DNA of 40,558 nt, taken from the IMG/VR virus record IMGVR_UViG_3300036884_000436, positions 1 through 40,558 of that record. One strand, given 5' to 3'. Within the stretch, counting starts at the first letter, position 1. The number at the start of each line of letters is the position of its first letter. Below, piece after piece: positions 1,535-25,117 of this stretch. Below the pieces are notes generated by a model. It did not search any database. It was not told the origin of the DNA and saw only the letters and a list, made by a program, of their open reading frames with translations. The position numbers and the translations under genes were made by a program. This stretch comes from a virus.

Positions 1535-1759
1535 TTCTCTTATAGGACATCGCCGAGATGTTGTCAAGCATTATCTCTCTCACAGGGGTTATTTTTTTAG
1601 CTCATCCCCGAAACGAGCGCTCAGCCGGCAGTCGGCTTCTTCTCGTTCTCTTATAGGACATCGCCGAGATGTTGTCAAGCATTATCTCTCTCACAGGGGT
1701 TATTTTTTTAGCTCATCCCCGAAACGAGCGCTCAGCCGGCAGTCGGCTTCTTCTCGTTC
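1535..1759. repeat. Perfect 111-bp tandem duplication (unit 111 bp)
   Basis: Bases 1535-1648 equal 1646-1759, giving two head-to-tail units of 111 bp with a shared TTC at the junction. On the minus strand each unit holds the last codons and stop of the integrase, then the ribosome-binding leader and early codons of the zinc-ribbon gene. The copy nearer the integrase supplies its real C-terminus; the other supplies the leader of the zinc-ribbon gene. No differences between copies are visible, so the event is recent or an assembly error. Confidence 0.95.
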
Positions 1760-2803
1760 CGGAGGCTTCTTTGGAAGGGGCAGTTCGAGCTTCGCGGCGG
1801 CGTCGGCCTTGGGCGCCAGGCGGATGTGTGAATAGCGTTTCTTCATTCGGCTCGAGAGCGCGTGGCCGGCCATCTCTTCGACCGTCTGCTCCGAGATATC
1901 AGGATCCTCCATCAGCTTGGTGATGGCGTGGTGGCGCAGGTCATACATGCGCAGCCCTGGCAAGCCCGCGGCCTGGCGTAGCGCTCCCCAGGCTTTCTTC
2001 CAGCTCCCTATGGGCCTCGAGGGATCGAGGGGCCGGCGACGTTTGCGTCCGGGAAGTATGTAGTGATCCGGATATGGCACGAGACACAGCTTTTTGCAGA
2101 GTTTGTAATACCGCTTCAGAATTTGAGTGACAGCCCACTGCGATGACGAATTCAGAGGTAGGATGCGCTCGCGGTGGCCATTCTTCAGGCCGTCGCGGAT
2201 CCGCAAGCTTCCAAATGGACTGCCTGGCCGCTCCCCCAACTCGATGTCGTCGAGGTGCAGGTGCGATATCTCCGCGGGCCCCGCGGTTGTTGTGGCACTC
2301 AGGATCGAGCACCAATAAGCAATCTTCCAGCGCGGCCTGGTGCCGGCGACCATGAAGAGCCGTGCTTCGTCCACCGGCTCGAGCGCCTGGCCAACTGTCC
2401 TGGGCAGACGAAGCGGTCGATAGAACTTTTTAATTTCACTCCACAGTCCGGCGCGCTCGAGGATCTGCTTGAGGGTATTGATCTCATGGTTGATGCACGA
2501 AGGCCCCGCCGCGGCCGAGCGTTCGGCGGTGTAGGCGGCGATGTGCCCGACGTGGACCTGGTCGAGCTGCAGCTCGCCGAAGAAGTGCTCGAGCGTGGCG
2601 ATGTAGTAGCGATAGTCAGTGCAGGTCTTCTCGGCAATTCGGGCTTTGTGCTCGTTGAGCCAGAGTGCGGAGGCTTCAGAAAAGTGCATGCTACCCATGG
2701 CTGCCGGCTCGACGGTGCGCACCAGGTAGAGCCTGCAGGCCGGGCAATCGATGTGGTGAAGTGTATGTGGGGTATCAGGCGAGGCGATTGATTGGGGGAC
2801 CAT
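1700..2803 (-). CDS. int: Tyrosine-family site-specific integrase
   Basis: 367 aa from ATG 2803. A short N-terminal segment with CPAC is followed by a SAM-like core-binding domain (about residues 40-130) and a catalytic domain. Visible catalytic residues are Lys in KNGHRERILPL, Arg in YDLRHH (about R290), His in AGH (about H314) and the nucleophile Tyr in KKRYSHI (about Y324). The first Arg of the pentad is not at its usual place: the segment reads TTAGPAEISHL. The HxxR box has Tyr in the His position. Similar variants are recalled from Acidobacteriota. The role is phage integration and excision, supported by the adjacent tRNA fragment. It is divergent from the plus-strand gene at 2855. Confidence 0.85.
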   Translation of the reverse strand: MVPQSIASPDTPHTLHHIDCPACRLYLVRTVEPAAMGSMHFSEASALWLNEHKARIAEKTCTDYRYYIATLEHFFGELQLDQVHVGHIAAYTAERSAAAGPSCINHEINTLKQILERAGLWSEIKKFYRPLRLPRTVGQALEPVDEARLFMVAGTRPRWKIAYWCSILSATTTAGPAEISHLHLDDIELGERPGSPFGSLRIRDGLKNGHRERILPLNSSSQWAVTQILKRYYKLCKKLCLVPYPDHYILPGRKRRRPLDPSRPIGSWKKAWGALRQAAGLPGLRMYDLRHHAITKLMEDPDISEQTVEEMAGHALSSRMKKRYSHIRLAPKADAAAKLELPLPKKPPEREEADCRLSARFGDELKK

Positions 2804-2840
2804 GACGCAGCTACAATAAAGCCAGCGCTGGCTTTTGCAA
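2788..2840. promoter_or_regulatory. Overlapping divergent promoters with a central palindrome
   Basis: Plus strand: TTGATT (2788-2793), 18-bp gap, TACAAT (2812-2817). Minus strand: TTGCAA (2835-2840), 16-bp gap, TATTGT (2813-2818). The two -10 elements overlap, and a perfect 12-bp palindrome GCCAGCGCTGGC (2821-2832) lies in the spacer of the integrase promoter and at the expected start of plus-strand transcription. A dimeric repressor bound there could control both directions. Promoters were judged by eye. Confidence 0.45.
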
Positions 2841-2854
2841 GTTACGGAGGGGCC

Positions 2855-3016
2855 ATGGCCCAAAAGAAGGCAGTTTGCAAGTTACATCCGGACACTGAGT
2901 TGGTGTGTCCGAAGTGTCAGGGAGAGAAGGGTGGCCAGACCACAGTGGAGAGACATGGCGACAAGCTGAGTAAGTGGGGAGCTCTGGGTGGACGCCCGAA
3001 GAAGGCGAAAAAGTAA
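2855..3016 (+). CDS. Small basic zinc-knuckle protein
   Basis: 53 aa. The start is set by GGAGGGG immediately upstream of ATG 2855. The N-terminal half has CKLHPDTELVCPKC, a possible zinc site; the C-terminal end (WGALGGRPKKAKK) is strongly basic and resembles nucleic-acid-contacting tails. It is the first plus-strand gene, divergent from the integrase, which is the position expected of a regulator, but no DNA-binding fold can be named. Confidence 0.6.
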   Translation: MAQKKAVCKLHPDTELVCPKCQGEKGGQTTVERHGDKLSKWGALGGRPKKAKK

Positions 3017-6169: not shown

Positions 6170-6295
6170 ATGATCGTTGTGGAAGTGGAAGTGGGTGAGC
6201 CGAACCATTTATGCGGTCCCGATTGCCCATGCTGGGACGCGCCGGCCTACGCTGAGATACGAGAGATATTGGGCAATGCTGGCGCGCTCGACTGA
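6170..6295 (+). CDS. 41-aa Cys-containing protein between the terminase genes
   Basis: ATG 6170 to TGA 6295, filling the gap between small and large terminase and overlapping the latter by 20 bp in another frame. The sequence has a CGPDCPCW cluster and an amphipathic C-terminal helix (AYAEIREILGNAG). The upstream AACAGG is a moderate ribosome binding site. Composition is protein-like and it explains an otherwise empty 120 bp, but there is no family match. Confidence 0.4.
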   Translation: MIVVEVEVGEPNHLCGPDCPCWDAPAYAEIREILGNAGALD

Positions 6296-7799
6296 GCCGG
6301 TTGCGCTGAACATACGCTTTCAGCCGAAGCAGGGCCAGTTCTGGACGCTGGCAAGTGATAGCCGGTCAGGCTGCCCGACGAAAATAGGGTACGGCGGCGC
6401 TCGAGGTGGCGGAAAGTCGAAGGCAGGCAGGGACGTAATGATCCTGTTGTGCCTGACCTACGATGCCGTCGACTGTTTGATTCTGCGGCGGACCTGGAAA
6501 GAGGTTTACCGCAACCACGTTGTGCCGATGTTTCGCGAGTTCCCTCACCTTCGTAAGTGGTGGAACGAGTCGAAGAAGACGCTGACGTTTCCGAACGGAT
6601 CGAACCTGATCTTCGGATATGCCGAGCACAAGGAAGACGTCTACGACTTCCAGGGGCATGAATATGCATTCATCCTGGTGGAAGAGGCGACGCACTTCAA
6701 CGAAGAAGAGCTGACCTTCCTTGAGACGTGCAACCGGTGGACTAAGAACCCGGCGATCGTGCCGAAGATGTTGTACACGACGAACCCTGGCAAGGCTGGC
6801 CACGAGTTCATCAAGCGCATCTTTGTCGATCGAGACTATAGAGATAACGAAGTACCCAGTGATTATGCCTTCATCCAGGCATACGGCTGGGACAACGTCG
6901 AGTGGGCATCGCCCGTGTTTGTTCGCGATGCCGGCATCACGCCGTTGCAGTGGAAGACTTGGACGGGCGATCAGCATCGGGCCTTCCTCGCGCCGTACGT
7001 CAACGGGTACTACTCGTGGACGGACTCGCAGAGATACGAGTTCTTTGTATCGAGGACGGATTACGGCCGGAAGCTGAATGCCCTGCATGGGCAGCTGCGC
7101 GAAGCTCATCTCTTCGGATCCTGGGATAGCTTCGTCGGACAGTTCTTCGGTGAGTGGAACCGCAAACTGCATGTTTGCAAGCCGTTCAATGTTCCCATTT
7201 GGTGGGAGCGCTTCACAGGGTTCGATTGGGGCTACACCTCAGCCGCGGCGACGCTGTGGTTTGCCGTAAGCCCTGAAGGCCGCATATTTGCGTATCGCGA
7301 AGCCTACATTAAGAAGCGCGACACGGTGTGGCTGGCGAAGTACAACTGCAAGCTGAGTGCGCTCGAGAAGCTTTGTTACAACGTCGCGGATCCCAGCTGC
7401 ATGAATCCGGACCATGGGCCTTCGATCGCAGAGGTGATGGGGATCCACGGCTGGAAGATGGTGGCCGGCGACAACGATCGCGTGAACGGCTGGTCGCGGG
7501 TCCGTGAGTTTCTAGCCTGGGAGCAGAACAGAGAAGGGCAACTATCGCGGGCCCCGATGCTCCAGATATTTGGCGAGGATCCGCAGTTCCCGGGGCTGGG
7601 CTGTCCGAACCTGATCAGGACGCTGCCAGCGTTGCCCTTTGACGAGCACGATCCTGAAGACGTCGACACGATGTCTGAAGATCACGCGCCGGACGCGCTT
7701 AGATACGCGCTGATGACCAGGCCGAGGTTCTCGATCGTGCCGGTGGAAGTGATGGCCGAGGAGTACGCCGAGGCGGAGAGAAGGGCGGAGCACAAGTAG
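6276..7799 (+). CDS. terL: Terminase large subunit
   Basis: 507 aa from ATG 6276. The N-terminal ATPase has a Walker A motif GGARGGGKS (about residues 40-48) and a Walker B motif FILVEE (about 132-137). The C-terminal RNase H-like nuclease starts at FTGFDWGY (Asp about 317), continues through NVADPSC and ends at HAPDALRYAL, giving the expected acidic residues. It cuts and pumps DNA into the prohead. GTG 6195 or TTG 6177 would add up to 33 residues, but that stretch reads as a different small gene. Length is typical for the family. Confidence 0.95.
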   Translation: MLARSTEPVALNIRFQPKQGQFWTLASDSRSGCPTKIGYGGARGGGKSKAGRDVMILLCLTYDAVDCLILRRTWKEVYRNHVVPMFREFPHLRKWWNESKKTLTFPNGSNLIFGYAEHKEDVYDFQGHEYAFILVEEATHFNEEELTFLETCNRWTKNPAIVPKMLYTTNPGKAGHEFIKRIFVDRDYRDNEVPSDYAFIQAYGWDNVEWASPVFVRDAGITPLQWKTWTGDQHRAFLAPYVNGYYSWTDSQRYEFFVSRTDYGRKLNALHGQLREAHLFGSWDSFVGQFFGEWNRKLHVCKPFNVPIWWERFTGFDWGYTSAAATLWFAVSPEGRIFAYREAYIKKRDTVWLAKYNCKLSALEKLCYNVADPSCMNPDHGPSIAEVMGIHGWKMVAGDNDRVNGWSRVREFLAWEQNREGQLSRAPMLQIFGEDPQFPGLGCPNLIRTLPALPFDEHDPEDVDTMSEDHAPDALRYALMTRPRFSIVPVEVMAEEYAEAERRAEHK

Positions 7800-8318: not shown

Positions 8319-8710
8319 GTGGTAGAGAAACAACCCCACCCAAGCCAACGACGGGCTTGAACGGGGCACCCTCTATCAGGCGCTGTTCGAACTGTAACGT
8401 GGAGGACAGGGCGGAGACGATCGAGGGCGAGTACGATGCCTTCGGCAAGGCGAAGGTTGAGCATCACGTTACGGTCGAGCTCAGGTACCTGAAGGTACAG
8501 ACAGAAGCTGAGGCACAGACGCGGATGACTCCGCACATGCGTCGACGGGGATGGAAGTACAAGCTCTTCCAGGGCAGGCATGCAATAGAGCGGTTCGTCT
8601 GCCGGCCATGTCTGCGGGATCTATCGATCATGGAGCGGGACTGGGCGTCGAAGGCCAACGGTGACCGGGCCTCAAATAAAGATTCGTACTACGGAGCATT
8701 ATGCGATTGA
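8285..8710 (+). CDS. Cys-pair protein
   Basis: 141 aa. RRCSNCNVED near residue 35 and RFVCRPCLRD near residue 105 give two CxxC pairs that could hold one zinc across a central beta-rich segment. A nested inverted repeat (CCCC, AAGCC, GGCTT, GGGG; 8335-8369) lies inside the first codons and resembles hairpins found elsewhere between genes of this phage, so the true start could be downstream, although no better one is visible. Confidence 0.5.
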   Translation: MQRLSPDRTTLSGRETTPPKPTTGLNGAPSIRRCSNCNVEDRAETIEGEYDAFGKAKVEHHVTVELRYLKVQTEAEAQTRMTPHMRRRGWKYKLFQGRHAIERFVCRPCLRDLSIMERDWASKANGDRASNKDSYYGALCD

Positions 8711-9540
8711 GCAGACTGAACGACAAGCCGCGGTTCTACCTCTTGTGGCTGCTGACCCTGGCGGTGATCGCGCTGTGGGCATCGAGCGCGCGCGCCCAGG
8801 GCGCCTACAACATGGACAGGGATTCCGGCAAGATCACGGTATCCGGCGGCACCTGGACGCACACGAACCGCATCGGCTCGCTGAATATCACGTTCGAAGT
8901 GCTGATCAACGGCTCGCCAACTACGAGCACAATCACAATTCAGGGCTGCGGACGCGGCAACCAGGCTGCCTATGGATCCTTGAACGGGCTGAACGGCCTG
9001 GCGGCCGTCTCTGCAACCTGCGATACGCTGGACACCTATACGGCTAACGCCAATGCAAACCGCAAGGTTACAGGCCTCTATGACTATTACCTGGTCACGG
9101 CGACCTGGTCAGGCGGGTCTTTGCAATCGGTGCAGGTGAACACGCTGGAGACGGCCGCGAGCTCGCCGCTCTCGGCAAACGATCCCTGTCAATCGAGCGC
9201 GGTGGCGAAGCAGAGCGCCGTGGTTAACATCTCGAGCGCGACGACCACGGAACTGGTGGCGGCGAGCGCGGGGCTAAGGGTTTACGTTTGCGGCTTTTAT
9301 GCCTCTGCTGCGGGAACGTCTCCCACGATGGTCTTCGAATATGGCACCAAGAGCAGCACGGCGTGCGATACCGGAGCAACAGCACTGACCGGGACGATCG
9401 CGGCGTCTACTACCATACCGTTGGAGCTCGCGAGCGGGCTGACTAACTTTGCCACGCCGCAAGGCAAAGAGCTTTGCGCGCTGAGTGCCGGCACCGGGCC
9501 GAACTTTCAGGGTGTGTTGACGTATGTGCAGGCTCCATAA
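8701..9540 (+). CDS. Exported fibre-like protein 1
   Basis: 279 aa. It begins with a clear Sec signal peptide (basic start, hydrophobic LLWLLTLAVIALW, cleavage after SSARAQ). The C-terminal 120 residues (from NDPCQSSAVAKQ to GVLTYVQAP) match a recalled domain of phage tail or surface proteins with STTTxLVA...VYVCG...GVLTYVQ. Four cysteines in that domain could form disulfides, consistent with export. Start overlaps the previous stop. A tail-fibre accessory or a host-surface protein are both possible. Confidence 0.65.
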   Translation: MRLSRLNDKPRFYLLWLLTLAVIALWASSARAQGAYNMDRDSGKITVSGGTWTHTNRIGSLNITFEVLINGSPTTSTITIQGCGRGNQAAYGSLNGLNGLAAVSATCDTLDTYTANANANRKVTGLYDYYLVTATWSGGSLQSVQVNTLETAASSPLSANDPCQSSAVAKQSAVVNISSATTTELVAASAGLRVYVCGFYASAAGTSPTMVFEYGTKSSTACDTGATALTGTIAASTTIPLELASGLTNFATPQGKELCALSAGTGPNFQGVLTYVQAP

Positions 9541-10804
9541 GCGCGTGAGGCGACTGCTGCTTCTCCTGACAATTCTGGCTTTCGGGCTTTCTGGCTTTGC
9601 GCAGACGACGTACACAGCCCATCTGTTCACTGGGCTGACGTCGCCGGCGACGACGGGCCAGGTGTGCTTCCACCTCAAGAACTACGGGACGAACATCCCG
9701 TATGTGGCGGGGACCGGAGTGGTAGCGGACACCGATCCGCCTTGTGTTCCGGCAGCGGTGACTGGCACGGTAACGGGAACGATCTACGGCAGCGACGTGA
9801 TTGCGCTGACCGGGTGTGTGCCTTCGGCGCTGAATCCTTGCACATATTGGACGGTGGAGTACTGGGTGAACGGGCAGATGAAGTCCACCCAGGACTACAG
9901 CAACATCGTCGGGGCGTCGGTGACGCTGGATAACCTGGCGCCGATGACTACGATCCCGATAATCCCGGCACCGACGGGCGATTCGACGTATGTGCAGCTT
10001 ACCGGTGGAAACGTCAACGGGAGCAGCGGGTTCCTGAACTTTCCCCAGTTTAGGATCGCTGGATCTCAATATGTAACGGGGCTGCAAGGTTCTGTCGGAG
10101 TCAAGGTTGCCGTCACCACAGGCAGCTTCACGAACGGCAATCTACGCTCGACAAATGCGACCGGTGATGAGGTCGACAGCGGGCGCGCCGTTCCGAACGG
10201 CGCCGTCCTCGGGGCACCTACACCTACGGTCTACAGCTCGGGCAGCGGGACATACACGACGCCGGCCGGAACAAAGCTACTGCACGTTCGCATGTGCGGC
10301 GCTGCCAGCGGCGGGGGCGGCGGTGGGACTGTAGGCGGCGCATCAAGCGGGCCATCCAACACCACTTTTGGAACCACGTTTCTGGTAGCCGGCGGGGGAA
10401 TCGGGGCAAATTCTTATATTCCGGGCTTTGGCGGGAGCGGTTCCGGAGGCACTCTTAATTTATTTGGCTCTTCCGGTCAAACCGGAACCGTCCCAAGTGT
10501 TGCCAGCCAGGGCGGCACTGGAGGATCTGGTTTTAGCGGTATGGGCGCTGGCTATGGAGGAAATGGTGCGGTCGGAGGATCGGGATCAAGTTGCGGAGGC
10601 GGCGGCGGCGGCGGCTCGGCATCTACGACATTTCCAACTGGCGGCGGAGGAGGAGGAGGAGGATATGTGGAGGCTTGGATCACGACACCCAATGCGACCT
10701 ATTCTTATTCGGTCGCTAGTGGCACAAACGGCGGCTCGGCAGGAACAAGCGGCTTCGCGGGCGGTCCGGGCGGCAATGGCCTCATCGTGGTAGAGGCGTA
10801 CTGA
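9524..10804 (+). CDS. Exported fibre-like protein 2 with glycine-rich tip
   Basis: 426 aa. A signal-peptide-like N-terminus (RRLLLLLTILAFGLSGFAQ) is followed by beta-rich segments and a C-terminal glycine-rich domain of about 180 residues starting near TYTTPAGTKLLHVRMCG, with runs of Gly6-8. This resembles glycine-rich receptor-binding tips of tail fibres. GTG 9545 is an alternative start. It overlaps the previous gene by 17 bp and ends convergently, overlapping the SGNH gene by 23 bp. Confidence 0.65.
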   Translation: MCRLHKRVRRLLLLLTILAFGLSGFAQTTYTAHLFTGLTSPATTGQVCFHLKNYGTNIPYVAGTGVVADTDPPCVPAAVTGTVTGTIYGSDVIALTGCVPSALNPCTYWTVEYWVNGQMKSTQDYSNIVGASVTLDNLAPMTTIPIIPAPTGDSTYVQLTGGNVNGSSGFLNFPQFRIAGSQYVTGLQGSVGVKVAVTTGSFTNGNLRSTNATGDEVDSGRAVPNGAVLGAPTPTVYSSGSGTYTTPAGTKLLHVRMCGAASGGGGGGTVGGASSGPSNTTFGTTFLVAGGGIGANSYIPGFGGSGSGGTLNLFGSSGQTGTVPSVASQGGTGGSGFSGMGAGYGGNGAVGGSGSSCGGGGGGGSASTTFPTGGGGGGGGYVEAWITTPNATYSYSVASGTNGGSAGTSGFAGGPGGNGLIVVEAY

Positions 10805-11522
10805 GTAGCATATCGAACATGATTTGAGACCCGACTGCGTTGGGATGGACCCCGTCGTCGGTTTCGCCCGTTCGGTAGTGCTGGCCATCGTCGGTGAGTC
10901 CGGAGTGGTAATCGACGATTGTGATTCCTTGCTCGGCTGCGAACTGCTTGAGCCAGGCGTTCAGCTCGTCGATGCGAAGGTAGCGTTCAGGAGATGGGTC
11001 AAGACACGCCTGATAGGCGGCACTATATCCAACCACCGCGCACACTTCTGGCGATGACGAGCTAATACCTGAAGCTGTTCCCCAAGGCGGGATAGTCCCG
11101 ACAACAACCTGGATGCCATTGGCTTTGGCTGTTTGCACCATATAGCCGAAGGTAGAGCAGTCGTCGATTCCAAGGTTGGCTACACCTCCCGATCCGACCC
11201 ACCAAGGGGCATCGGGGCCCATGCTGCACGGTGAAAGCCACCAGGAATAGACGTCGTTTGTCCCGGCCAGGATATGCACGATGTCGGGATGTAGGGCGAC
11301 GACGTCGGCTTCGAAGCGCCCCGCGATGTTTGCGGAGGTCTGGCCCGAGACGCCCTTGCCGGTCCAATTCGCATGTGCCTGAAATTGAGGCTGGTTACCG
11401 AGCACAACGGTGACAGAGTCGCCGATAAAAACGCCGTTCTTTGTCTCCAGCGGGCTTGGCGGCGAGCCGCCGCAGGCGATGAAAGAGAGCGATAGCAGGA
11501 CGGCGAAGGTTAAGGATTTCAC
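10782..11522 (-). CDS. SGNH/GDSL-type hydrolase lipoprotein
   Basis: 246 aa, GTG start with AAGGAG upstream. A lipoprotein signal ends LSFIAC at C17. SGNH blocks are present: GDSV (Ser36), GKGVSGQTS (Gly block), GTND (Asn89) and DDGVH (Asp223, His226). The family hydrolyses esters, typically acetyl groups on carbohydrates or lipids. Being membrane-anchored and encoded opposite to the virion genes, it could modify the cell surface of infected cells or lysogens. Translationally coupled to the regulator upstream (GTGA overlap). Confidence 0.85.
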   Translation of the reverse strand: MKSLTFAVLLSLSFIACGGSPPSPLETKNGVFIGDSVTVVLGNQPQFQAHANWTGKGVSGQTSANIAGRFEADVVALHPDIVHILAGTNDVYSWWLSPCSMGPDAPWWVGSGGVANLGIDDCSTFGYMVQTAKANGIQVVVGTIPPWGTASGISSSSPEVCAVVGYSAAYQACLDPSPERYLRIDELNAWLKQFAAEQGITIVDYHSGLTDDGQHYRTGETDDGVHPNAVGSQIMFDMLLSTPLPR

Positions 11523-11656
11523 GATCTCTTCTCCTTCTGTTGAAGCAGCCGGATAGCGATACGGATGATCTGACTGACACCGACTCCGAGCTTCTTGTTA
11601 AGCCATTCAAGGATTTTCTGGTCCTCTTCAGTGGGGCGAAAGCTGATTGGGTCCAT
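11519..11656 (-). CDS. Ribbon-helix-helix-like regulator
   Basis: 45 aa, too short for routine calling. It reads as a complete RHH unit: strand ISFRPT, helix A EEDQKILEWLNKKLG, helix B VSQIIRIAIRLLQQKE. The stop overlaps the GTG of the SGNH gene (GTGA). The expected product binds DNA as a dimer and probably represses its own promoter, where TGTAT/ATACA half-sites lie. ATG 11656 sits about where transcription would start, so the message may be leaderless; GTG 11665 is an alternative. Confidence 0.65.
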   Translation of the reverse strand: MDPISFRPTEEDQKILEWLNKKLGVGVSQIIRIAIRLLQQKEKRS

Positions 11657-11691
11657 GTATGACACTGTAATACAGAGTTGCTGAACGTCAA
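11653..11691 (-). promoter_or_regulatory. Promoter and operator of the regulator-SGNH pair
   Basis: On the minus strand TTGACG (11691-11686), a 16-bp gap and TACAGT (11669-11664) make a fair promoter. An inverted TGTAT...ATACA (11654-11672) overlaps the -10 element and the start codon, a good position for autoregulation. Confidence 0.5.
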
Positions 11692-11814
11692 GAGAAAAGT
11701 TTTAAGATTCTGCCTGCAACAACAGGTGGGACATGGGAAGGGCCAGAGCAAGGCGCCGTTCGGGGGAAGGCGTCGGGCGATGGCCTTTCCTTTTGGAATT
11801 CGAGGTGAGGGGGC

Positions 11815-12012
11815 ATGGACGGAGCACAGATTCTAGGAGCGACGATCGGCATACAGTTGCTCGGCATAGCGTTCATCTACGGGATGCACTCGCGGGCCTC
11901 AAACGATCATGAGCGGCGGCTCGGCATTCTCGAAGTAAAGTCGACGGAGCATGGTGAGGATATCGCCGCGCTAAAGGGCGCGCGCTCCCTGAGCACGGCG
12001 GCTGGCAGGTAG
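11815..12012 (+). CDS. Single-pass membrane protein, holin candidate
   Basis: 65 aa with GAGGGGG before ATG 11815. A transmembrane segment (ILGATIGIQLLGIAFIYGM) near the N-terminus is followed by a charged helical tail (DHERRLGILEVKSTEHGEDI). Size and topology fit a small holin or holin-associated protein and it stands upstream of the lysin gene, but nothing in the sequence is diagnostic. Confidence 0.5.
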   Translation: MDGAQILGATIGIQLLGIAFIYGMHSRASNDHERRLGILEVKSTEHGEDIAALKGARSLSTAAGR

Positions 12013-12045
12013 GTTTCTCAATTTCAATTCGAAATAGGAGCTCCA

Positions 12046-13200
12046 ATGAAAGCATTTCGCACACTCTCTCTGCTGGCGGTTGTACTGCTCGTCGCCTCAG
12101 CGATGTTCGGGCAAAGCCGCCAGGCGCCGCCGGTGATCTCCGGCACCAACGTCGGTTACTGCGGTGAGGCTTCATACAACTCTGGGCTAGACGGCTGCCT
12201 GATGAGGGTTGGACCAGGCCAGTACGGCTTCAGCAACGGGCAGTTGCCGGTGGCGAGCCTGATTCCGCTGACTCCGAATATTTACCTGAACGCACCTGCT
12301 GCGGTCTCACTTGCGACGGCAACGACCGGCGGGCTGATTCCAGCAGGCACCTACCGTTTAGCGGCAACTTATGTGACGTGGACTGGCGGCGAGACACCGA
12401 TTTCGACCGACTCCGGCTCGACACAGGCTACCACCGGAGCCACTTCTACGCTTACCGTAACTGCCCCCGCCGCGGTCTCGGATGCAGCTGGATACCGCGT
12501 ATATGCCTCTGCCGCGGCCGGTGCGGCGAATAGCGAAGTTCTGCAGCCTCTGACTATGGCAGTCTGTGCCGGGGCATTCCAGATCGGCGGCGGCATCACC
12601 GTCTGCCCGTTCGGCGCCAACGCGGTTTTCACCTCGCTGGTGTCTTCCGGCTATACCGGGCCTGCTCTCTCCGGAGCGGCCAATACGGCCGGCGTCGTAA
12701 ACCTGACGGCGGGCCCGCAGACTGCGATCACGACCGTGACCACGGTGCAGACGATGGGCTCCTGGACGTTGGCCGCAGGCGCGATGAATGTGCAAGGCAA
12801 GAAGATGCGGATTAAGGGCTATGCCGTGTTTTCCAACGGCGCTACCACGCCCGCGATCACCCTCAGCGTGAAGATTGGCGCCTCCATTACCCCGGTCTCC
12901 ATCGTAGGTGCTGCCAACGCGAACAGCAACAGCAGCGCGCCGCTGCCCTTCGACATTGTCATTCAGACCACCACAACTGGGTCTTCGGGAGCTGATGAAG
13001 CGCACGGCTGCATGCAAAATTCGACAGCGGCGGCCTGGTCTTCGGGCGCCTCTCTGTTGAACTACTGCGACAACAACACGGCGGCATCTTCAACCTACGA
13101 CCATACTGCGTCGAACGTGCTGGCGATCAACATAGCGGCCACGGCGGCGTTGACCACTGTGACGCTGAGGGATGTCTCAATCGAGTTCATCCAGAACTAA
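12046..13200 (+). CDS. Exported fibre-like protein 3
   Basis: 384 aa; AGGAG precedes the ATG. A Sec signal peptide (KAFRTLSLLAVVLLVASAMFGQ) leads into a Thr/Ala/Gly-rich, beta-strand-rich protein. Middle and C-terminal parts (TTVTTVQTMGSWTLAAGAM, VTLRDVSIEFIQN) are typical of phage fibre or appendage domains. Six or more cysteines are present. It closes with a strong terminator. It shares the export signal with the two fibre-like genes upstream. Confidence 0.65.
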   Translation: MKAFRTLSLLAVVLLVASAMFGQSRQAPPVISGTNVGYCGEASYNSGLDGCLMRVGPGQYGFSNGQLPVASLIPLTPNIYLNAPAAVSLATATTGGLIPAGTYRLAATYVTWTGGETPISTDSGSTQATTGATSTLTVTAPAAVSDAAGYRVYASAAAGAANSEVLQPLTMAVCAGAFQIGGGITVCPFGANAVFTSLVSSGYTGPALSGAANTAGVVNLTAGPQTAITTVTTVQTMGSWTLAAGAMNVQGKKMRIKGYAVFSNGATTPAITLSVKIGASITPVSIVGAANANSNSSAPLPFDIVIQTTTTGSSGADEAHGCMQNSTAAAWSSGASLLNYCDNNTAASSTYDHTASNVLAINIAATAALTTVTLRDVSIEFIQN

Positions 13201-13233
13201 AGCCACAGATTGGAGCCTCGCTTCACTCTGCGA

Positions 13234-13266
13234 AGGGACCTGTAATTACAGGTCCCTATTTTTATA
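13234..13266 (+). terminator. Rho-independent terminator
   Basis: A perfect 24-nt palindrome, AGGGACCTGTAA and its complement, is followed by ATTTTTATA. It ends transcription of the exported-fibre block just before the lysin gene. Confidence 0.85.
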
Positions 13267-13275
13267 GAAGGCACG

Positions 13276-13743
13276 ATGCAGACACCGATTCCGCAACTCA
13301 TTGACCTTTGCAAGCGATACGGCCTGGCGCTCGGCTACAAGCCATTTGACGGCCCGACGCTGATGTTCGCGCTGGCGATGGTGGAGTCGAGCGAGGGAAA
13401 GAACTGCGCGCCTCGGCATGAGGACGGTTACTGCCGCGGCGGAAAGTACTTTGACAAGATTGCAACCGAGCAGTGGAACTGCCTGGCGCACATGTCGTAC
13501 GGCGAATGGCAGGTGATGTGGGCAAATATGAAGGTTGCGCCGCAGATCCTGCTGACCGACCAGGAGACCAGGGCAAAGTTGTCGTCGCTATTCATCGCGA
13601 ACCTCGCGCTTCGGGCGAGCCAGGCTGGCCAGGGCTTGAAGGCGTCTCTCGCTTTATTTGCGCACCACTACAACGGCCCGGCGACGACGCAGAAGTACAT
13701 CGACGATCTGACGGCCGCTTACCAAAAGGGAATTCCAGGATGA
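13276..13743 (+). CDS. Transglycosylase/lysozyme-like endolysin
   Basis: 155 aa. MFALAMVESSEGKN supplies the catalytic Glu (E37) in the position used by lytic transglycosylases, and MSYGEWQVMWAN corresponds to the GLMQIM-type second motif. A later ALFAHHYNGP fits the third block. Peptidoglycan cleavage is the likely role. There is no signal peptide, so release would need a holin. Its TGA overlaps the next ATG. Confidence 0.7.
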   Translation: MQTPIPQLIDLCKRYGLALGYKPFDGPTLMFALAMVESSEGKNCAPRHEDGYCRGGKYFDKIATEQWNCLAHMSYGEWQVMWANMKVAPQILLTDQETRAKLSSLFIANLALRASQAGQGLKASLALFAHHYNGPATTQKYIDDLTAAYQKGIPG

Positions 13744-13922
13744 CGCAGGTTGAATTTCACCTGGCCGACGGTAACCATACGCCGATGTGCGTCGACGCCG
13801 ACGAGATCAAGCTGGAATTCTCCTGCCTGGCCGGCACAACGATCTGCACTCCAAGCTGCTCATTTGTGGTGATCGAAAAGCTGGACGAGGTGAAGCAGAT
13901 GATCGAGGAGGCGCGCACTTGA
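13740..13922 (+). CDS. Hypothetical small protein in the lysis region
   Basis: 60 aa; ATG 13740 overlaps the lysin stop as ATGA. Beta-rich, with a CLAGTTICTPSC segment and a helical C-terminus. Not recognised. Confidence 0.55.
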   Translation: MTQVEFHLADGNHTPMCVDADEIKLEFSCLAGTTICTPSCSFVVIEKLDEVKQMIEEART

Positions 13923-14104
13923 AGGAAGGCTATCACGTGATCAAAACGCTGCGCGATATACGGCCCGGACAGCCCTTTGTGATGATCTGCAAAGAGTGCG
14001 TCAGTAATCATCACGAGGACTGCCCAACCCCCGACTGCAACTGCATTTGCCGACGCGACAAGGTTCTGCTCGCTCATTTTGGCAGAACGATTGACCAGAA
14101 ATAA
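13919..14104 (+). CDS. Cys-rich zinc-binding protein
   Basis: 61 aa from TTG 13919, which has AGGAGG nine bases upstream and overlaps the previous stop (TTGA). The middle contains CKECVSNHHEDCPTPDCNC, a dense Cys/His cluster expected to hold one or two zinc ions. No enzyme motif. Confidence 0.55.
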   Translation: MKEGYHVIKTLRDIRPGQPFVMICKECVSNHHEDCPTPDCNCICRRDKVLLAHFGRTIDQK

Positions 14105-14105
14105 T

Positions 14106-14732
14106 ATGGCGAAGCACATTGACCACATCTCGGAGCTGCAGGCGCTGGCGGTTGGAAAGCCGGAATTCTATAGTCGCTTGAGATCTGGCATGCTGCTGTT
14201 CTGCATCGGCAAGGCTGAGATCAGCAAAGCGATTCAGAAGGCAACAAAGAGCCCGCTGAGCCACATCGGGATGATTTACATGCCATGCTTCGAGGACGGG
14301 GCTCCGGTGGGCCTGTGGACGTTGATAGAGGCCGTTTATCCGCACGGCGTGGGAATGAACCCGCTGGAGAGTTACGTCGAAGGCCCCGAGGATCTGATCC
14401 TGTGCAAGCGCGTGGATCCGAACGGCAAAGATATTGACCAACGGGCGGCGATCCTGGCGGAGCTGAAGATGTGTGGCCACGGCTACGCCGCGCTCGGCCT
14501 GGTCAAAGAGGGATTGCACCGGATGGTCCCCGCGCTGCCTGCCGAGTGCAGCACAAACGAAGTTTACTGCAGCGGCTTGCAGCACATCGGTTCTACCAAC
14601 ACTATTTTCCCCTTCGCGGCGCCTGACGGTGGAGAGCCGGCGCCCGAGGATGAGTATGTGGATCCGAGCGTGGTGGTAGTGGCTGCGATGATCAAGCAGG
14701 CGCTGGCGGCGGCGAAAGGAGCTTCGGCGTGA
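14106..14732 (+). CDS. Permuted NlpC/P60-type (YiiX-like) hydrolase
   Basis: 208 aa. The order is His first and Cys last, as in circularly permuted papain-fold enzymes: LSHIGMIYM (His53), LIEAV (Glu75), EVYCSGLQH (Cys155). Such enzymes cut peptide or acyl bonds in cell-wall peptides or lipids. Position beside the lysin suggests wall degradation at lysis or DNA entry. No signal peptide. Confidence 0.65.
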   Translation: MAKHIDHISELQALAVGKPEFYSRLRSGMLLFCIGKAEISKAIQKATKSPLSHIGMIYMPCFEDGAPVGLWTLIEAVYPHGVGMNPLESYVEGPEDLILCKRVDPNGKDIDQRAAILAELKMCGHGYAALGLVKEGLHRMVPALPAECSTNEVYCSGLQHIGSTNTIFPFAAPDGGEPAPEDEYVDPSVVVVAAMIKQALAAAKGASA

Positions 14733-14941
14733 AACAACTTCTGACGAGCTGGTACTTCTGGGCTGTGCTCATGTTCGTTGGCGGCTGGCTGAAATTCATC
14801 TTCATGTGCGCTGTGGCTTCGATGGCTCCGCCAACGGAAGCGGACAGTCAGAGGTACGCTTTCTACTTCCGCTTCTTCAATAAGATTTCCGTAAACCCTC
14901 CGACGCTGGAGAGCGCCGGCATTCGATTTCCCAAACCTTAA
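14729..14941 (+). CDS. Small membrane protein
   Basis: 70 aa, GTG start overlapping the previous stop (GTGA). A long hydrophobic segment (SWYFWAVLMFVGGWLKFIFM) near the N-terminus is followed by a polar C-terminal half. A second holin candidate or an accessory lysis protein; unproven. Confidence 0.5.
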   Translation: MKQLLTSWYFWAVLMFVGGWLKFIFMCAVASMAPPTEADSQRYAFYFRFFNKISVNPPTLESAGIRFPKP

Positions 14942-14960
14942 ACCCCGAAAGGAAAATGAA

Positions 14961-15410
14961 ATGTCTACAGTACCCGCCAGCGCTCCGGCGCCGCCACCTA
15001 AACAAAGCGAAGTCAAGCACGTCCTGGCCGTAATCGGAGAGGACTTCAAGAAGGTTCTATACGGGGGCGAGAACGTCACCATCGCCGAGCTGCCATTGGA
15101 GGAGAAGTATCTTCCCGGAATGGCCGTCATCATGAAGATGCTTCTCGCCGCCCAGATCAATGCCCAGCAAAAGTATGCTGCGGTAAAGGGCGAGACTGGG
15201 GTGAAGAAGGCCGCCGATGTTATCGGCATCACCTTTGAAGCAGCGGTCGAGATCGCGGCCGGCTTCGGTGCAACCATCACCAAGGCCAACTACCAGCTCG
15301 CAAACGATGCCCTGGTGAACTTCCAGAAGGCGTTCACGGTACCGGGCAGTTTGACTGCTGCGCCGACAACGGCGGCTTTGATTGCTGCTTCGGATTCAGG
15401 CGCAGCGTAG
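14961..15410 (+). CDS. Helical hypothetical protein
   Basis: 149 aa with GAAAGGA upstream. A proline-rich start (ASAPAPPPK) precedes a mostly helical, alanine-rich body. The length and composition are reminiscent of small virion or head-associated proteins, but no family is recognised. Confidence 0.5.
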   Translation: MSTVPASAPAPPPKQSEVKHVLAVIGEDFKKVLYGGENVTIAELPLEEKYLPGMAVIMKMLLAAQINAQQKYAAVKGETGVKKAADVIGITFEAAVEIAAGFGATITKANYQLANDALVNFQKAFTVPGSLTAAPTTAALIAASDSGAA

Positions 15411-15485
15411 ATAGAGAAGTATCAATCTGCCGGCAAGTGGGGAAGGGCTGAAAGGCTTTTCCCCGTTCTATTTCAGGGAGGTTCC

Positions 15486-15758
15486 GTGGCGAAGGATTCG
15501 AAGAAGAACAGCGCCCGAGACAGCGGTATGCGCGGCCCAAGCGTACCCATGTCTACCGGTGGCGGGAAAAAGAAACTGGCCGGGGGCGCGGCCTCGATCT
15601 CCGTTCGCCGCGCGGACAATGGCTACATCGTGAGCTGCGAGTTCCCCTATGACGGGAAGAAGTACCGGGAGTCTGAGCAGAGCGTGTTTGCCAGCGCTGC
15701 GGACGTGGCTGAATTCATCGAGAAGAAACTCGGTGTGAAGGACGGTGACGACAAATGA
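15486..15758 (+). CDS. Small protein with an RDSGMRG motif
   Basis: 90 aa from GTG with GGGAGG upstream. The N-terminal 35 residues are disordered and contain DSGMRGPSVP; the rest (ASISVRRADNGYIVSCEFPY) forms a compact beta-rich segment ending in a helix. The SGMRG motif recurs in the next protein. Stop and next ATG overlap. Confidence 0.55.
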   Translation: MAKDSKKNSARDSGMRGPSVPMSTGGGKKKLAGGAASISVRRADNGYIVSCEFPYDGKKYRESEQSVFASAADVAEFIEKKLGVKDGDDK

Positions 15759-16536: not shown

Positions 16537-16843
16537 TCTGCGGGTGCTGGTCGACCAGGCGCACGACCGGGAGAAGGACTTGGCAGGAATGGTCCGCCTG
16601 GTGATGGAGGAGCGCTTCTACCGTCCGGACGTGACCAGGCCAGAAGGCAAGCCCGTGAACCATTCGCCGCTGCCGGCGGAGGCGCTCGAGGACGTGACCA
16701 ACTTTGACGGCGAGGCCGACGCGAAGACGATCAAGGAGCAGGACATCGTTGCAAAAGAAATAGCGGACGGGATCGCCGAGCTTGCGAGAGAAGAGCGCGA
16801 GTATCGCGAGTCTCGCGAGTCTCGCGGGACAAAGGCTGAATAG
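16460..16843 (+). CDS. Helical hypothetical protein
   Basis: 127 aa from ATG 16460, which has TGGAGG ten bases upstream; ATG 16424 in the same frame would lengthen the overlap with the preceding gene. Highly charged and helical, ending in YRESRESRG encoded by a short tandem TCTCGCGAG repeat. Its last base is the first base of the portal start (TAGTG). Confidence 0.5.
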   Translation: MPSPPETLLPAMLDKLTSAQQAHIADLRVLVDQAHDREKDLAGMVRLVMEERFYRPDVTRPEGKPVNHSPLPAEALEDVTNFDGEADAKTIKEQDIVAKEIADGIAELAREEREYRESRESRGTKAE

Positions 16844-19173
16844 TGGCGAGCAACCAGGTGGAAAGCCGGTCACTGGCGGAAGGCGGCGGCTCGAGCTTGA
16901 GCAAGGCGCTGCTGGGATATGCAGACGTTTTGCATCAGGACCTCTCGCGCAACCGCTTTGCGGAAGAGCGCGAGTGGTACGAAGAGGCACTCTTCTACCA
17001 GCGGCGCCAGTGGCTGAAGTGGGACAACTCGAACAAGCGGTGGAGTCTGATTAAGCAGGATCCGGACAAGCCGCGGCCGATGCCGGTGACGAACCACTTT
17101 GCCCGGACGATCAATGCCAATGCCAACCAGCTTGGCGGCGGTCGTCTGCGGGCGATGTGCATTCCGAACGATGACAGCGACAAGAACCGCCGGGCTGCGC
17201 AGTTTGCCGAGAAGGCAATCGACGCGATCGACGAAGAGAGCGGGATGAACGTGCAGAACCCGCTGCTGGCGAAGCACGTTGCGCTGTGGGGCATCGGTGT
17301 TACCAAGGATATCTGGGATCAGTCCAGCTCTAACGGCACCTATAAGCTGCCGGTGATGGGCGAGCCGGTGCAGACTCCGCAGCTTGGCTGCTTCGATTGC
17401 GGTCGGGTTTCAGCGGGCGAGGTCAACGACGCGGCGGGGCCCGGAATGCCTTCTACCACGCCCGGAACGATGGAGGTTCCATGTCCGCAGTGTGGATCTC
17501 CTAACACTGCGGGCTGGCTATCCTCGCAGCCAACAGTTCAGGAAACGAAGGAGTTCTACAAGGGCAAGATTTGCACAGAGGTGCGACCGATCTTCGAGTT
17601 CTTCCTGCCGCGGGACTGCATGGCGCCGAACCTGGCGAAGAAGATGCAGCACCGCTACCGGAAGCCGTTGTCGGAGGCCAAGCGGATCTGGCCCGACATG
17701 GCTGACGAGCTGCAGATCGACGTACGGCAGGATACCAGCACGGTTTACCTGGAAGCTCTGCGCTCGCTGGTGAATTACAACTACATGCAGGAGCAGAGCG
17801 CCGAAGCTCTGACGGTGACTGAGACCTACGTGGATTGGGACCAGCTCCCGGAGGACCTGCAGGAGAAGCTCGAAGAGGTAGTTCTGGCCGGAGAAGACGA
17901 TGAAGGGATTCCCTTCGAGGCTCCGGATCCTGACCTGGACCCGGTGGAGCAGCTTCACCAGTGGGGAATCTTCATTATCAGCGGCGGCGGCAAGATTCTC
18001 GATCGTGGAATCAACCCAATCGAAGGCGAGAAGCCGTACACGTTCTACCTGTGGCAGACGGACCCGGCAAACGTTTATCCGATGGGCATGGGCTCGGACC
18101 TGATCCCCTTGCAGAAGCGTTTGAACCGGCTGGACTCGCTGATCGAGCTGGCCTACATGTCGAACGCGGCCGGCAAGTGGCTGTGGCCGTCGACGCAGAC
18201 GACCGGGAAGCCTACAGGATCGCCCAGCGACGTGATCGAGTTCGATCCGATCGGCGACGGCAAGATCAAGCCGGAGTTTGTGCAGCCGAATCCGATTGCG
18301 CAGTCGGCGCACGGCCTGAGACAGGCGATCAAACAGGACTTCCTCGAAATTGGCATGACCGAGGGCGTGCAGATGGGTCACAATCCCCAGGGCGTGACGG
18401 CCTTCCGTGGATTGGCGTACCTTGGAGCCAAGGCAGCCGAGCAGATCTCGACGCAACGGCAGCTCTGGGAGCGGGCGCACGCCATGAGGCACAAGAAGTG
18501 CCTGATTCTGGCGAAGAAATTCTGGAGTGAGCCGCGGCGGACCAAGGTGGCAGGCTTCAACGGCCGCTGGGGCATGAAGCAGTTTCTCGGGCAGGACCTC
18601 GAGGGCGATTACACGAACACGATCGTGGAGAACAGCTCCCGGCCGAAGACGATTGACGAGAAGCAGGGGCAGTTCGCCATGCTGGTGCAGGGCGGCCTGA
18701 TAGACCCGACCGACCCGAGCACAAGGGAGTATGTGCTGGACGAGATGAATCTGGACAGGGTGAACCTGACGGATCATCTCCAGTACGAGAAGGCCGAACG
18801 CGATCTCGAATCGGTGATCAACGGCCAGATGCCAGCGCTGAATCCGTACATCAACCTGGCGATCTTTGTGAAGATCTTCTCGAACTTTACCCTCACGGAA
18901 GAGTTCGAGGAGCTGCCACAGGATGCGCAGCAGCGGGTGATGCAGGCGACGCAGATGATCAGCCAGGCGATGGCCCAGCAGCAGGCGGCGGCGGCGATGC
19001 AGCAGATGCGGACGCAGGCCACACAGCGGCTCGCAGGGGCTATGGCAGAGCATGCGGCCAAGGGGCCACAGGACCCCGGTCTGAGCGGCGTACCAGGTAA
19101 AACAACATCGCCGGAGGCTTCGGCCACGGCGGCCGAGTCAGAAGGAAATCAGATGGCATCGGCGATGCCGTAG
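16843..19173 (+). CDS. Portal protein, P22-like, with an embedded zinc-ribbon pair
   Basis: 776 aa, GTG start. Size, the early RQWLKWDNSN and PMPVTNHFARTINANANQLGGG segments, a helical C-terminal barrel and a Gln/Ala-rich tail (QQQAAAAMQQM) fit P22-type podovirus portals. It forms the dodecameric ring through which DNA is packaged and ejected. Residues 183-217 carry CFDC and CPQC pairs in an inserted loop, probably binding zinc. Position downstream of the terminase and upstream of scaffold and capsid supports the call. Confidence 0.85.
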   Translation: MASNQVESRSLAEGGGSSLSKALLGYADVLHQDLSRNRFAEEREWYEEALFYQRRQWLKWDNSNKRWSLIKQDPDKPRPMPVTNHFARTINANANQLGGGRLRAMCIPNDDSDKNRRAAQFAEKAIDAIDEESGMNVQNPLLAKHVALWGIGVTKDIWDQSSSNGTYKLPVMGEPVQTPQLGCFDCGRVSAGEVNDAAGPGMPSTTPGTMEVPCPQCGSPNTAGWLSSQPTVQETKEFYKGKICTEVRPIFEFFLPRDCMAPNLAKKMQHRYRKPLSEAKRIWPDMADELQIDVRQDTSTVYLEALRSLVNYNYMQEQSAEALTVTETYVDWDQLPEDLQEKLEEVVLAGEDDEGIPFEAPDPDLDPVEQLHQWGIFIISGGGKILDRGINPIEGEKPYTFYLWQTDPANVYPMGMGSDLIPLQKRLNRLDSLIELAYMSNAAGKWLWPSTQTTGKPTGSPSDVIEFDPIGDGKIKPEFVQPNPIAQSAHGLRQAIKQDFLEIGMTEGVQMGHNPQGVTAFRGLAYLGAKAAEQISTQRQLWERAHAMRHKKCLILAKKFWSEPRRTKVAGFNGRWGMKQFLGQDLEGDYTNTIVENSSRPKTIDEKQGQFAMLVQGGLIDPTDPSTREYVLDEMNLDRVNLTDHLQYEKAERDLESVINGQMPALNPYINLAIFVKIFSNFTLTEEFEELPQDAQQRVMQATQMISQAMAQQQAAAAMQQMRTQATQRLAGAMAEHAAKGPQDPGLSGVPGKTTSPEASATAAESEGNQMASAMP

Positions 19174-21662: not shown

Positions 21663-22889
21663 TTGGCTGATCAGAACACGATCAACCGCATCGGGGGACT
21701 GCTCAAAAACGTCTACTCCGACGCGATTGTGGAGCAACAGAACCTTGCCGCAGTAGCGCGCAAACTGTTCACAAAAGCAAAGGGCGTCCGTCTGGGTGGG
21801 GACCACTACGAGATCTCAATCAGGATCGGTGGAAACCGCGCCGGCGTCGGTGCCCGCAACTCTGACGACACCTTGCCCACCCCCCTGCGTCAGCAGGAAA
21901 AGAAGTTCCTGGTCTACGACCGCGCTGTCTTCGGCGTGATCAGGGTCTTCGACAAGGATATTCAGAACAGCAAAGACAACAAGCAGGCCTTCATCAACCA
22001 CCTGGACGATGAAGTCACCCAGGTTGCCAAAGACGTGATGAAGCACATGAACATCATGACCTATGGCGACGGCACGGGAACGCTCGCCCTGGTGAATGCA
22101 GGCACGGTGGCCACCAACCAGTTTGTGGGCAAGACCGGCACCGCGTTCGGCAACTTCGGTACGCGATACCTGCAGCTCAACGATCAGATCGACATCTGGG
22201 ATCCGACCTTTGCCGTCCAGCGCACTCCGGCTGGCGGCGTGACGGTGACCAACGTCGATCCGACAACGCAGACGGTGACCATGAGCAGCGTCCTGACACT
22301 CACCGCAAACGATGTGGTAGTGCGGGCGAACTCGCAGAACAAGGAATACGTCGGTCTGCAGTTGGCGACCGACAATTCCTCGTCCGTAACCTTCCAGGCC
22401 CTGTCCCGCGGCTCCTACGCGATGCTGCGCGGCAACGTGGTCTCGGCGGGCGGCGCTGGCTTGGCGGAGTCGCACCTGCAGCAGATCATCTCGCTGATCG
22501 AAATGTCGAGCGGCGAGACACCGGACCGGTTCTTGACCGGCAACGCGCAGTGGGATGCTTATGTGGCCCTCGGCCAGTCGCTGAAGCGCTATGTGAACAC
22601 CCAGAAGCTGGACCGCGGCTTCCAGGAGCTGGATTACAACGGCATCCCCTTCCTTAAGGACGTGGACGCTCTGCCGGCTGCTATCTTCGCCATCAACAGC
22701 GAATATGTGCAGAACGGCGTGGTGACCCCGCTGAGCTGGATGGAAGAGGACGGCTCTCTGCTGAAGTGGGACCCGGGCTACGCTGCTTACAAGGGCGTGA
22801 TGAGGGAATACGGGAACTACGTGTACCCGCGTCCGAACGCGATCGGCAGGATCGACACCCTGGCGGTGGGCGCGGCCTACGTGCGGTAG
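21663..22889 (+). CDS. Major capsid protein
   Basis: 408 aa from TTG 21663 with GGAG eight bases upstream. Features of HK97-fold coats of the N4-gp56/P22-like groups are seen: a helical N-terminus, RRIGGNRAG-type basic loop (SIRIGGNRAGVGARNSDD), an extended central domain with many Thr/Val strands, and a C-terminal segment rich in Tyr and Pro (YGNYVYPRPNAIGRID). It is placed after the scaffold and before head-completion genes, and its codon use is the most regular in the window. It builds the icosahedral shell. Confidence 0.8.
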   Translation: MADQNTINRIGGLLKNVYSDAIVEQQNLAAVARKLFTKAKGVRLGGDHYEISIRIGGNRAGVGARNSDDTLPTPLRQQEKKFLVYDRAVFGVIRVFDKDIQNSKDNKQAFINHLDDEVTQVAKDVMKHMNIMTYGDGTGTLALVNAGTVATNQFVGKTGTAFGNFGTRYLQLNDQIDIWDPTFAVQRTPAGGVTVTNVDPTTQTVTMSSVLTLTANDVVVRANSQNKEYVGLQLATDNSSSVTFQALSRGSYAMLRGNVVSAGGAGLAESHLQQIISLIEMSSGETPDRFLTGNAQWDAYVALGQSLKRYVNTQKLDRGFQELDYNGIPFLKDVDALPAAIFAINSEYVQNGVVTPLSWMEEDGSLLKWDPGYAAYKGVMREYGNYVYPRPNAIGRIDTLAVGAAYVR

Positions 22890-24415: not shown

Positions 24416-25117
24416 GTGGACCTGAAGACGATGTTTGCGCTGGCGCATGCCAAGAGCTACTACTCCAGGTCTGACCAGGAGGTGTGGTGGGCGATCAGCG
24501 GCGCCGCCCATACGCTTTATCTGAAGATTCTGGCGGAGAATCGCGGCTTCTTCATTAAGTGGGATACGACGACGGTTGCGCTGGCGCCGAACACCGAGGA
24601 GTACACCCTGCCGGCGGACTGCACGCAATTGCTGCGGGTGCGCGAGCAGGCAAGCTCATCGGCTCCCTGGCGGACGGTGACGCCGGCGGAGAGCCTCAAC
24701 GATCCGAACTTCACCGACTCGCAGTTCAACTCCGTGCTGGGCCCGAACATGGATGGCCCAACCTCGGAGTTCACTTACTACCCTTACCTGCTGCAGGCGG
24801 ATGCAATAACAGCAGCGCAAAACGAGCGCATTCGCTTCGAGCCTCCGCCGTACGACAACCGCGCGGTGGAGCTCGTCTATGTCTGCCGCTTTCTGGAGAT
24901 CGTCAATCAGAACTCAACCAAGGTTCTGCCCAACGAGGCGGACGAGGTAGTGCTCTACGATGCGATTGCCACGCTGCTGGAAGACAACGGCGACGATGGC
25001 AGCAAGGCGAAGAACCATTCCCACGAAGAAGAGATCGTCTTTCTGAAGTGGGTGCGCAAACGGCAGCAGCAGGCGGCCGTGACTCACGTACAGCCGTACG
25101 TGGACGACATGGATTAG
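24416..25117 (+). CDS. Probable head-tail adaptor (tail tubular A-like)
   Basis: 233 aa, GTG start with a G-rich ribosome binding site. The sequence (AISGAAHTLYLKILAENR, TTVALAPNTEEYTLPADC, FEPPPYDNRAVELVYVC) matches the helix-then-beta layout of podovirus connector proteins such as T7 gp11 or P22 gp4 relatives. Directly followed by the large tail-hub gene, as in those phages. Role: ring between portal and tail nozzle. Assigned from layout and context. Confidence 0.6.
   Translation: MDLKTMFALAHAKSYYSRSDQEVWWAISGAAHTLYLKILAENRGFFIKWDTTTVALAPNTEEYTLPADCTQLLRVREQASSSAPWRTVTPAESLNDPNFTDSQFNSVLGPNMDGPTSEFTYYPYLLQADAITAAQNERIRFEPPPYDNRAVELVYVCRFLEIVNQNSTKVLPNEADEVVLYDAIATLLEDNGDDGSKAKNHSHEEEIVFLKWVRKRQQQAAVTHVQPYVDDMD

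Follow-up and report, generated by a model that had tools for sequence, protein, structure and literature searches.

The virions of tailed phages are generally taken to be finished in the cytoplasm. Against this background, a preliminary description of the window analysed here (the whole of the 40,558-base virus record IMGVR_UViG_3300036884_000436, of podovirus type) had found it contradictory that three of its genes, starting at positions 8701, 9524 and 12046, encode fibre-like proteins with Sec signal peptides. The records of other phages remove this contradiction, as signal-bearing fibres have been recorded in the virions of the Cellulophaga phages phi10:1, phi19:1 and phi39:1. Indeed, the virion proteins with Sec signals recorded by tandem mass spectrometry (MS/MS) are gp091-gp094 of phi10:1, gp101-gp104 of phi19:1 and gp25-gp26 of phi39:1, nearly all of them having Gln at position +1. 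Of the proteins recorded by MS/MS in phi10:1 and phi19:1, the eight that belong to the fibre module, among them two pectate lyases and two tail fibres, bear signals without exception, as compared with none of the 17 others, and the head, tail-tube and tape-measure proteins of the Cellulophaga phages have none. Phage phi39:1 adds two signal-bearing proteins to this count, its gp23 having been left out because it was flagged in an overlapping frame. A further case is podovirus ctLwi270 (MW202554), whose capsid is distantly related to that of the window phage (25% identity). Its signal-bearing proteins include a fibre with an unmistakable tail-collar domain (PF07484, E 1.7e-23) and matches to 19 tail PHROGs, a beta-helix spike and also a ConA-like lectin. 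The trait is nevertheless patchy among phages, since no signals were found in phi14:2 or in the checked part of phi38:1, nor on the annotated fibres or spike of Puniceispirillum phage HMO-2011 and Arthrobacter phage Jasmine, which are relatives by terminase or capsid. We found no description of exported virion fibres as a class in the literature, the nearest being comments on the signal peptides that lyases of the Cellulophaga phages Ingeline and Nekkels carry (PMC8776804) and a report on P. gingivalis phages in which Q-rule proteins with signals were interpreted as possibly modifying the outer membrane (PMC10367356).

We propose that the three proteins of the window are receptor-binding (fibre or spike) proteins, belonging to a phage of podovirus type that infects Acidobacteriota, which fold in the periplasm and join the tail at lysis, a reading that we favour with moderate confidence. 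The proteins would be made late in the lytic cycle and exported by the host Sec system, signal peptidase I (SPase I) would cut them and expose an N-terminal Gln, and the mature proteins would fold with disulfides in the periplasm and be stored there. Heads and tails would assemble in the cytoplasm, and at cell lysis the two pools would meet and the fibres join the tails.

Export signals and fibre character of the three proteins

The three open reading frames (ORFs) are present on the + strand and begin with the signal sequences MRLSRLNDKPRFYLLWLLTLAVIALWASSARA (8701), MCRLHKRVRRLLLLLTILAFGLSGFA (9524) and MKAFRTLSLLAVVLLVASAMFG (12046), each of which is followed by Gln. All have a basic n-region, a strongly hydrophobic core (Kyte-Doolittle 9-residue mean of about 3.0-3.5) and small residues at -3 and -1, forming an SPase I site directly before this Gln. 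Signals were scored by a home-made rule on the n-, h- and c-regions instead of SignalP, and under this rule none of 24 other + strand phage genes was flagged even as a signal, while the combination of signal and Gln appeared in 0.1-0.4% of whole-protein shuffles of the three proteins. The starts of 8701 and 12046 are closely preceded by Shine-Dalgarno-like GGAG sites; at 9524 the site is weak, but the gene overlaps the stop of 8701. The possibility that the signals are artefacts of wrongly placed start codons was therefore rejected, as ribosome-binding sites directly precede two of the three genes and relatives keep the signals. The cleavable-type Sec signals of the preliminary description are thus borne out, and it is well supported from the sequences that the three proteins carry classical Sec/SPase I signals for export, with predicted cleavage before Gln. 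Neither a lipobox (all three proteins are free of Cys from position 15 to 32) nor a hydrophobic segment beyond the signal was found, and no surface anchor was recognised, dedicated secretion signals having been profile-searched through Pfam only. This suggests that after Sec export the proteins should stay soluble in the periplasm.

The fibre character of the three proteins is likewise well supported, and the beta-rich bodies attributed to them earlier agree with the structural models. Beyond a helix at residues 2-21 the 12046 model consists almost wholly of strand, albeit at low confidence (pLDDT 52), and that of 8701 is likewise almost all strand, at a confidence lower still and too poor for a structure search. 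The Foldseek matches of the 12046 model are to spike and fibre proteins of viruses, such as the KP34 depolymerase (8.8e-5), pectate-lyase-type phage proteins and, from a Bacillus phage, a pre-neck appendage protein (4e-4); among solved structures there was no match by profile and no fold match below E = 0.001. The Gly-rich tip ascribed to 9524 is present, and its matches to Pfam Gly_rich_2 (E 0.018) and to a tail-fibre PHROG (E 0.0087) are weak. In the 8701 family the first ~130 mature residues are kept in the related loci L003 and L006 and the remainder is replaced; a conserved N-terminal module with an exchanged rest is the usual build of receptor-binding proteins, which argues for the fibre-like reading. 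The middle and C-terminal domains of 12046 recur in L016 behind a different N-terminus. A resemblance of 12046 to a 'structural protein' of Flavobacterium phage lillamy was dropped, as the genome paper of that phage reports no mass spectrometry.

Related loci, host and cysteines

Relatives of the terminase occur in 24 viral contigs and in assemblies of three bacteria, namely Granulicella mallensis X5P3, a Bryobacterales metagenome-assembled genome (MAG) and another MAG with the label Patescibacteria. Of these, Granulicella and the Bryobacterales MAG belong to Acidobacteriota and contain the relatives as prophages. Considering loci with at least 5 kb of sequence downstream of the terminase large subunit (TerL), 23 of 24 have at least one signal-bearing ORF (at least 110 amino acids) within 9 kb after TerL, L023 being the sole locus without one; this set includes two pairs of near-duplicates (L016/L017 and L021/L024) and a frameshifted copy in L004. 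The signal-bearing proteins after TerL include some of 841, 822, 747, 737 and 614 amino acids, whereas none of 52 homologues of non-signal phage proteins was flagged. Members of the 12046 family have 55-69% identity in L003, L005 and L007, and a large protein of L016 is distantly related. In L005 and L007 the homologue lies just 5' of a holin-like gene and/or a phage lysozyme, the lysozyme just after it being a clear one in both. An alignment search found no relatives of the 12046 family in bacterial genomes, and so there is no evidence for a host-derived secreted family; annotated phage records held no relatives of 12046 either, nor of the signal proteins of L002 and L003.

Two of the related loci depart from this arrangement. 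In L004 (IMGVR_UViG_3300048503_000063), whose terminase is 95% identical, a 9524 homologue is directly followed at 12617-15053 by adaptor/25121-like genes with no portal or capsid genes in between, and the 8701 homologue is frameshifted; we regard this locus as a defective prophage or a misassembly. In the Granulicella prophage (L031) the signal-bearing ORFs were counted but are not fibre-like: the terminase-portal gap contains two copies of a related non-signal protein with a IGKSGQYYRAGYL.. motif (11819-12733 and 14818-15621) and small lipoprotein-like genes in place of large fibres.

The cleavage sites can be compared with those of an Acidobacteriota host. In 300 kb of the Granulicella mallensis X5P3 genome (L043-L057), a small sample from one genome, Gln occupies +1 in 31 of 37 ORFs with a signal, and the same rule gives 39 of 52 in the phage set, some spurious ORFs included. 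The phage signals thus match the style of this host, which has a Q-rule-like preference for Gln at +1. It resembles the Q-rule of Bacteroidetes, for which alone such a preference is described in the literature found; PMC5837995 does not mention Acidobacteria.

The mature parts carry paired-looking cysteines, six in each of the three proteins, and are thus candidates for disulfide formation. The Cys count is even in all 27 signal-and-Gln proteins of Acidobacteriota-type loci, as compared with 31 even and 15 odd counts among non-signal homologues (Fisher p = 0.0005). Two Cys pairs are invariant in the 12046 family and the third (C321, C341) is lost as a pair in L003. A related host encodes DsbA and VKOR.

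Weighing the alternatives

By analogy with the phages discussed above, the three proteins would be present in the virion of the window phage, and for the time and place of their attachment we infer joining at lysis. In vitro, the tail spikes of P22 are able to attach to particles that lack tails, so that a late joining of fibres is possible. Taken together, the expected soluble periplasmic fate, the proximity of 12046 homologues to lysis genes and the terminator-like hairpin that comes after 12046 make joining at lysis the simplest reading. A number of points weigh against the proposal as a whole. For the lineage of the window phage, virion membership rests on MS/MS records of other phages; the Cellulophaga assignments were taken as deposited, and periplasmic proteins may have contaminated the virion preparations. 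The profile matches of all three proteins lie below thresholds, and the 12046 model combines its low pLDDT with Foldseek matches that span only part of the chain. In respect to the cysteines, the parity group was picked by locus after first counts and has some homologous members, Bacteroidota-looking loci (L008-L010, L013) break the even pattern, and even counts are not favoured among the exported ORFs of the 300-kb sample from Granulicella (10 even, 14 odd).

The preliminary description had instead suggested that the proteins coat the surface of infected or lysogenic cells, for example as decoy receptors, in adhesion or in the exclusion of other phages. In this reading they would be exported non-virion proteins active in the cell envelope, through receptor masking, phage exclusion or adhesion. 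The signals are real and conserved, an SGNH lipoprotein is encoded in the same cluster, and the outer-membrane reading of the P. gingivalis phage proteins (PMC10367356) points the same way. However, coating of the cell surface is left unsupported by proteins that have neither lipobox, second hydrophobic segment nor recognised anchor, and for which no route to the surface is visible. Also, the genes share a + strand run with those for packaging, lysis and virion structure, with no promoter-like site above chance, and no other fibre candidate or signal-less paralogue of the three was recognised in the window; this adds to the recorded presence of such fibres in virions of other phages, and we consider an envelope role unlikely. 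Two further explanations are less likely than this one. Some of the protein might escape Sec and reach virions through the cytoplasm, the rest being exported to act in the envelope or on debris, which would serve both readings. Leaky signals do exist in other systems, but by reading of the sequences no conserved internal start follows the signal and the even Cys counts suggest a single oxidising location, making such a division improbable. An uncut hydrophobic N-terminus serving as an unusual anchor, as had also been suggested, or a signal that is a mere relic, would be in keeping with the strong N-terminal hydrophobicity; yet Gln at +1 of the cleavage sites is what an Acidobacteriota host prefers (31/37), and even distant relatives with diverged bodies retain the signals, so that we hold this to be very improbable.

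On a broader and more tentative level than periplasmic folding and late joining of the window proteins, it is quite possible that a wide range of tailed phages, those of Acidobacteriota and Bacteroidota at the least, divide the making of their adsorption apparatus between two compartments. Capsid and tail would be built in the cytoplasm, whereas receptor-binding fibres would be exported by Sec, lose their signals and form disulfides in the periplasm, and the two would be joined only at lysis. Should such export and late joining of fibres prove routine, this would amount to a separate extracytoplasmic arming step and would explain the use of disulfide-rich adhesins on a virion. The annotation of fibre genes would change as well, as the presence of a signal peptide could no longer be taken to rule out a virion protein. 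Pieces of this picture are already on record (PMC8776804, PMC10367356 and deposited annotations).

Gene neighbourhood and comparison with known systems

The three genes sit between terminase and portal, and the features of the window are collected in the table. The SGNH protein is a fourth exported product among the cluster, outside what had been claimed earlier; it is possibly a moron that alters acetyl groups on surface glycans. Beside the lysis genes, 14079-14732 has a weak match to YaeF/YiiX-type C92 papain-like amidases (PF05708, E 0.03), and a large late-module protein at 28013-29026 has a weak Hint-domain match that lies below the cut-off (PF13403, E 1.2e-4).

Table. Coordinates of annotated features in the window
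Feature	Coordinates	Strand	Remarks
Integrase	1700-2863		
Second tyrosine-recombinase-like ORF, 179 amino acids	5023-5562		catalytic part only; besides the integrase
Terminase large subunit (TerL)	6177..7799	+	upstream of fibre-like cluster; homology begins near 6273
Exported fibre-like protein 1, 279 amino acids	8701..9540	+	signal, conserved beta domain, variable C-terminal part
Signal peptide (Sec/SPase I) of protein 1, 32 amino acids	8701..8796	+	predicted cut between ARA and QG
Exported fibre-like protein 2, 426 amino acids	9524..10804	+	Gly-rich C-terminal tip
Signal peptide (Sec/SPase I) of protein 2, 26 amino acids	9524..9601	+	predicted cut between GFA and QT
SGNH/GDSL hydrolase lipoprotein	10782..11522	-	convergent with fibre-like genes; moron-like
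Small protein with one transmembrane segment, possible holin	11815..12012	+	tentative; PHROG holin E = 0.31
Exported fibre-like protein 3, 384 amino acids	12046..13200	+	Ig/FnIII-like middle, jelly-roll-like C-terminal domain
Signal peptide (Sec/SPase I) of protein 3, 22 amino acids	12046..12111	+	predicted cut between MFG and QS
Terminator-like 10-bp hairpin and T-run	13234..13257	+	directly 3' of protein 3; pattern match (15 sites in region vs 9.2 expected)
Muramidase-like protein, tentative endolysin	13276..13743	+	PF11860 E = 0.046
Portal protein	16843..19173	+	without signal
Major capsid protein	21663..22889	+	without signal
Head-tail adaptor, SU10-type	24416..25117	+	without signal

Compared with known systems, exclusion-type surface lipoproteins (Llp, Cor and the like) have at their cleavage site a lipobox Cys that is absent from the three proteins. 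Tail spikes and depolymerases of the P22/KP34 type share with them a conserved N-terminal module and a variable tip, and the 12046 model partly resembles the KP34 depolymerase; however, those spikes are cytoplasmic proteins without a signal. Exported proteins under the Bacteroidetes Q-rule (PMC5837995; phage cases in PMC10367356) also have Gln right after the SPase I site, whereas here this Gln is seen in phages of Acidobacteriota and in a host from that phylum. The domains of ctLwi270 (MW202554), unlike those of the window proteins, are recognisable by Pfam and its cleavage sites are mostly without Gln, but along with the distantly related capsid it has several signal-bearing proteins of fibre or spike type. 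Finally, the fibres and pectate lyases of phi10:1, phi19:1 and phi39:1 have no sequence similarity that we could find to the window proteins, and these phages differ in having tape-measure genes (long tails), a Bacteroidota host and few Cys; they are alike in that their proteins are of the fibre or spike type, are encoded in a late structural module and carry a Sec signal with Gln at +1.

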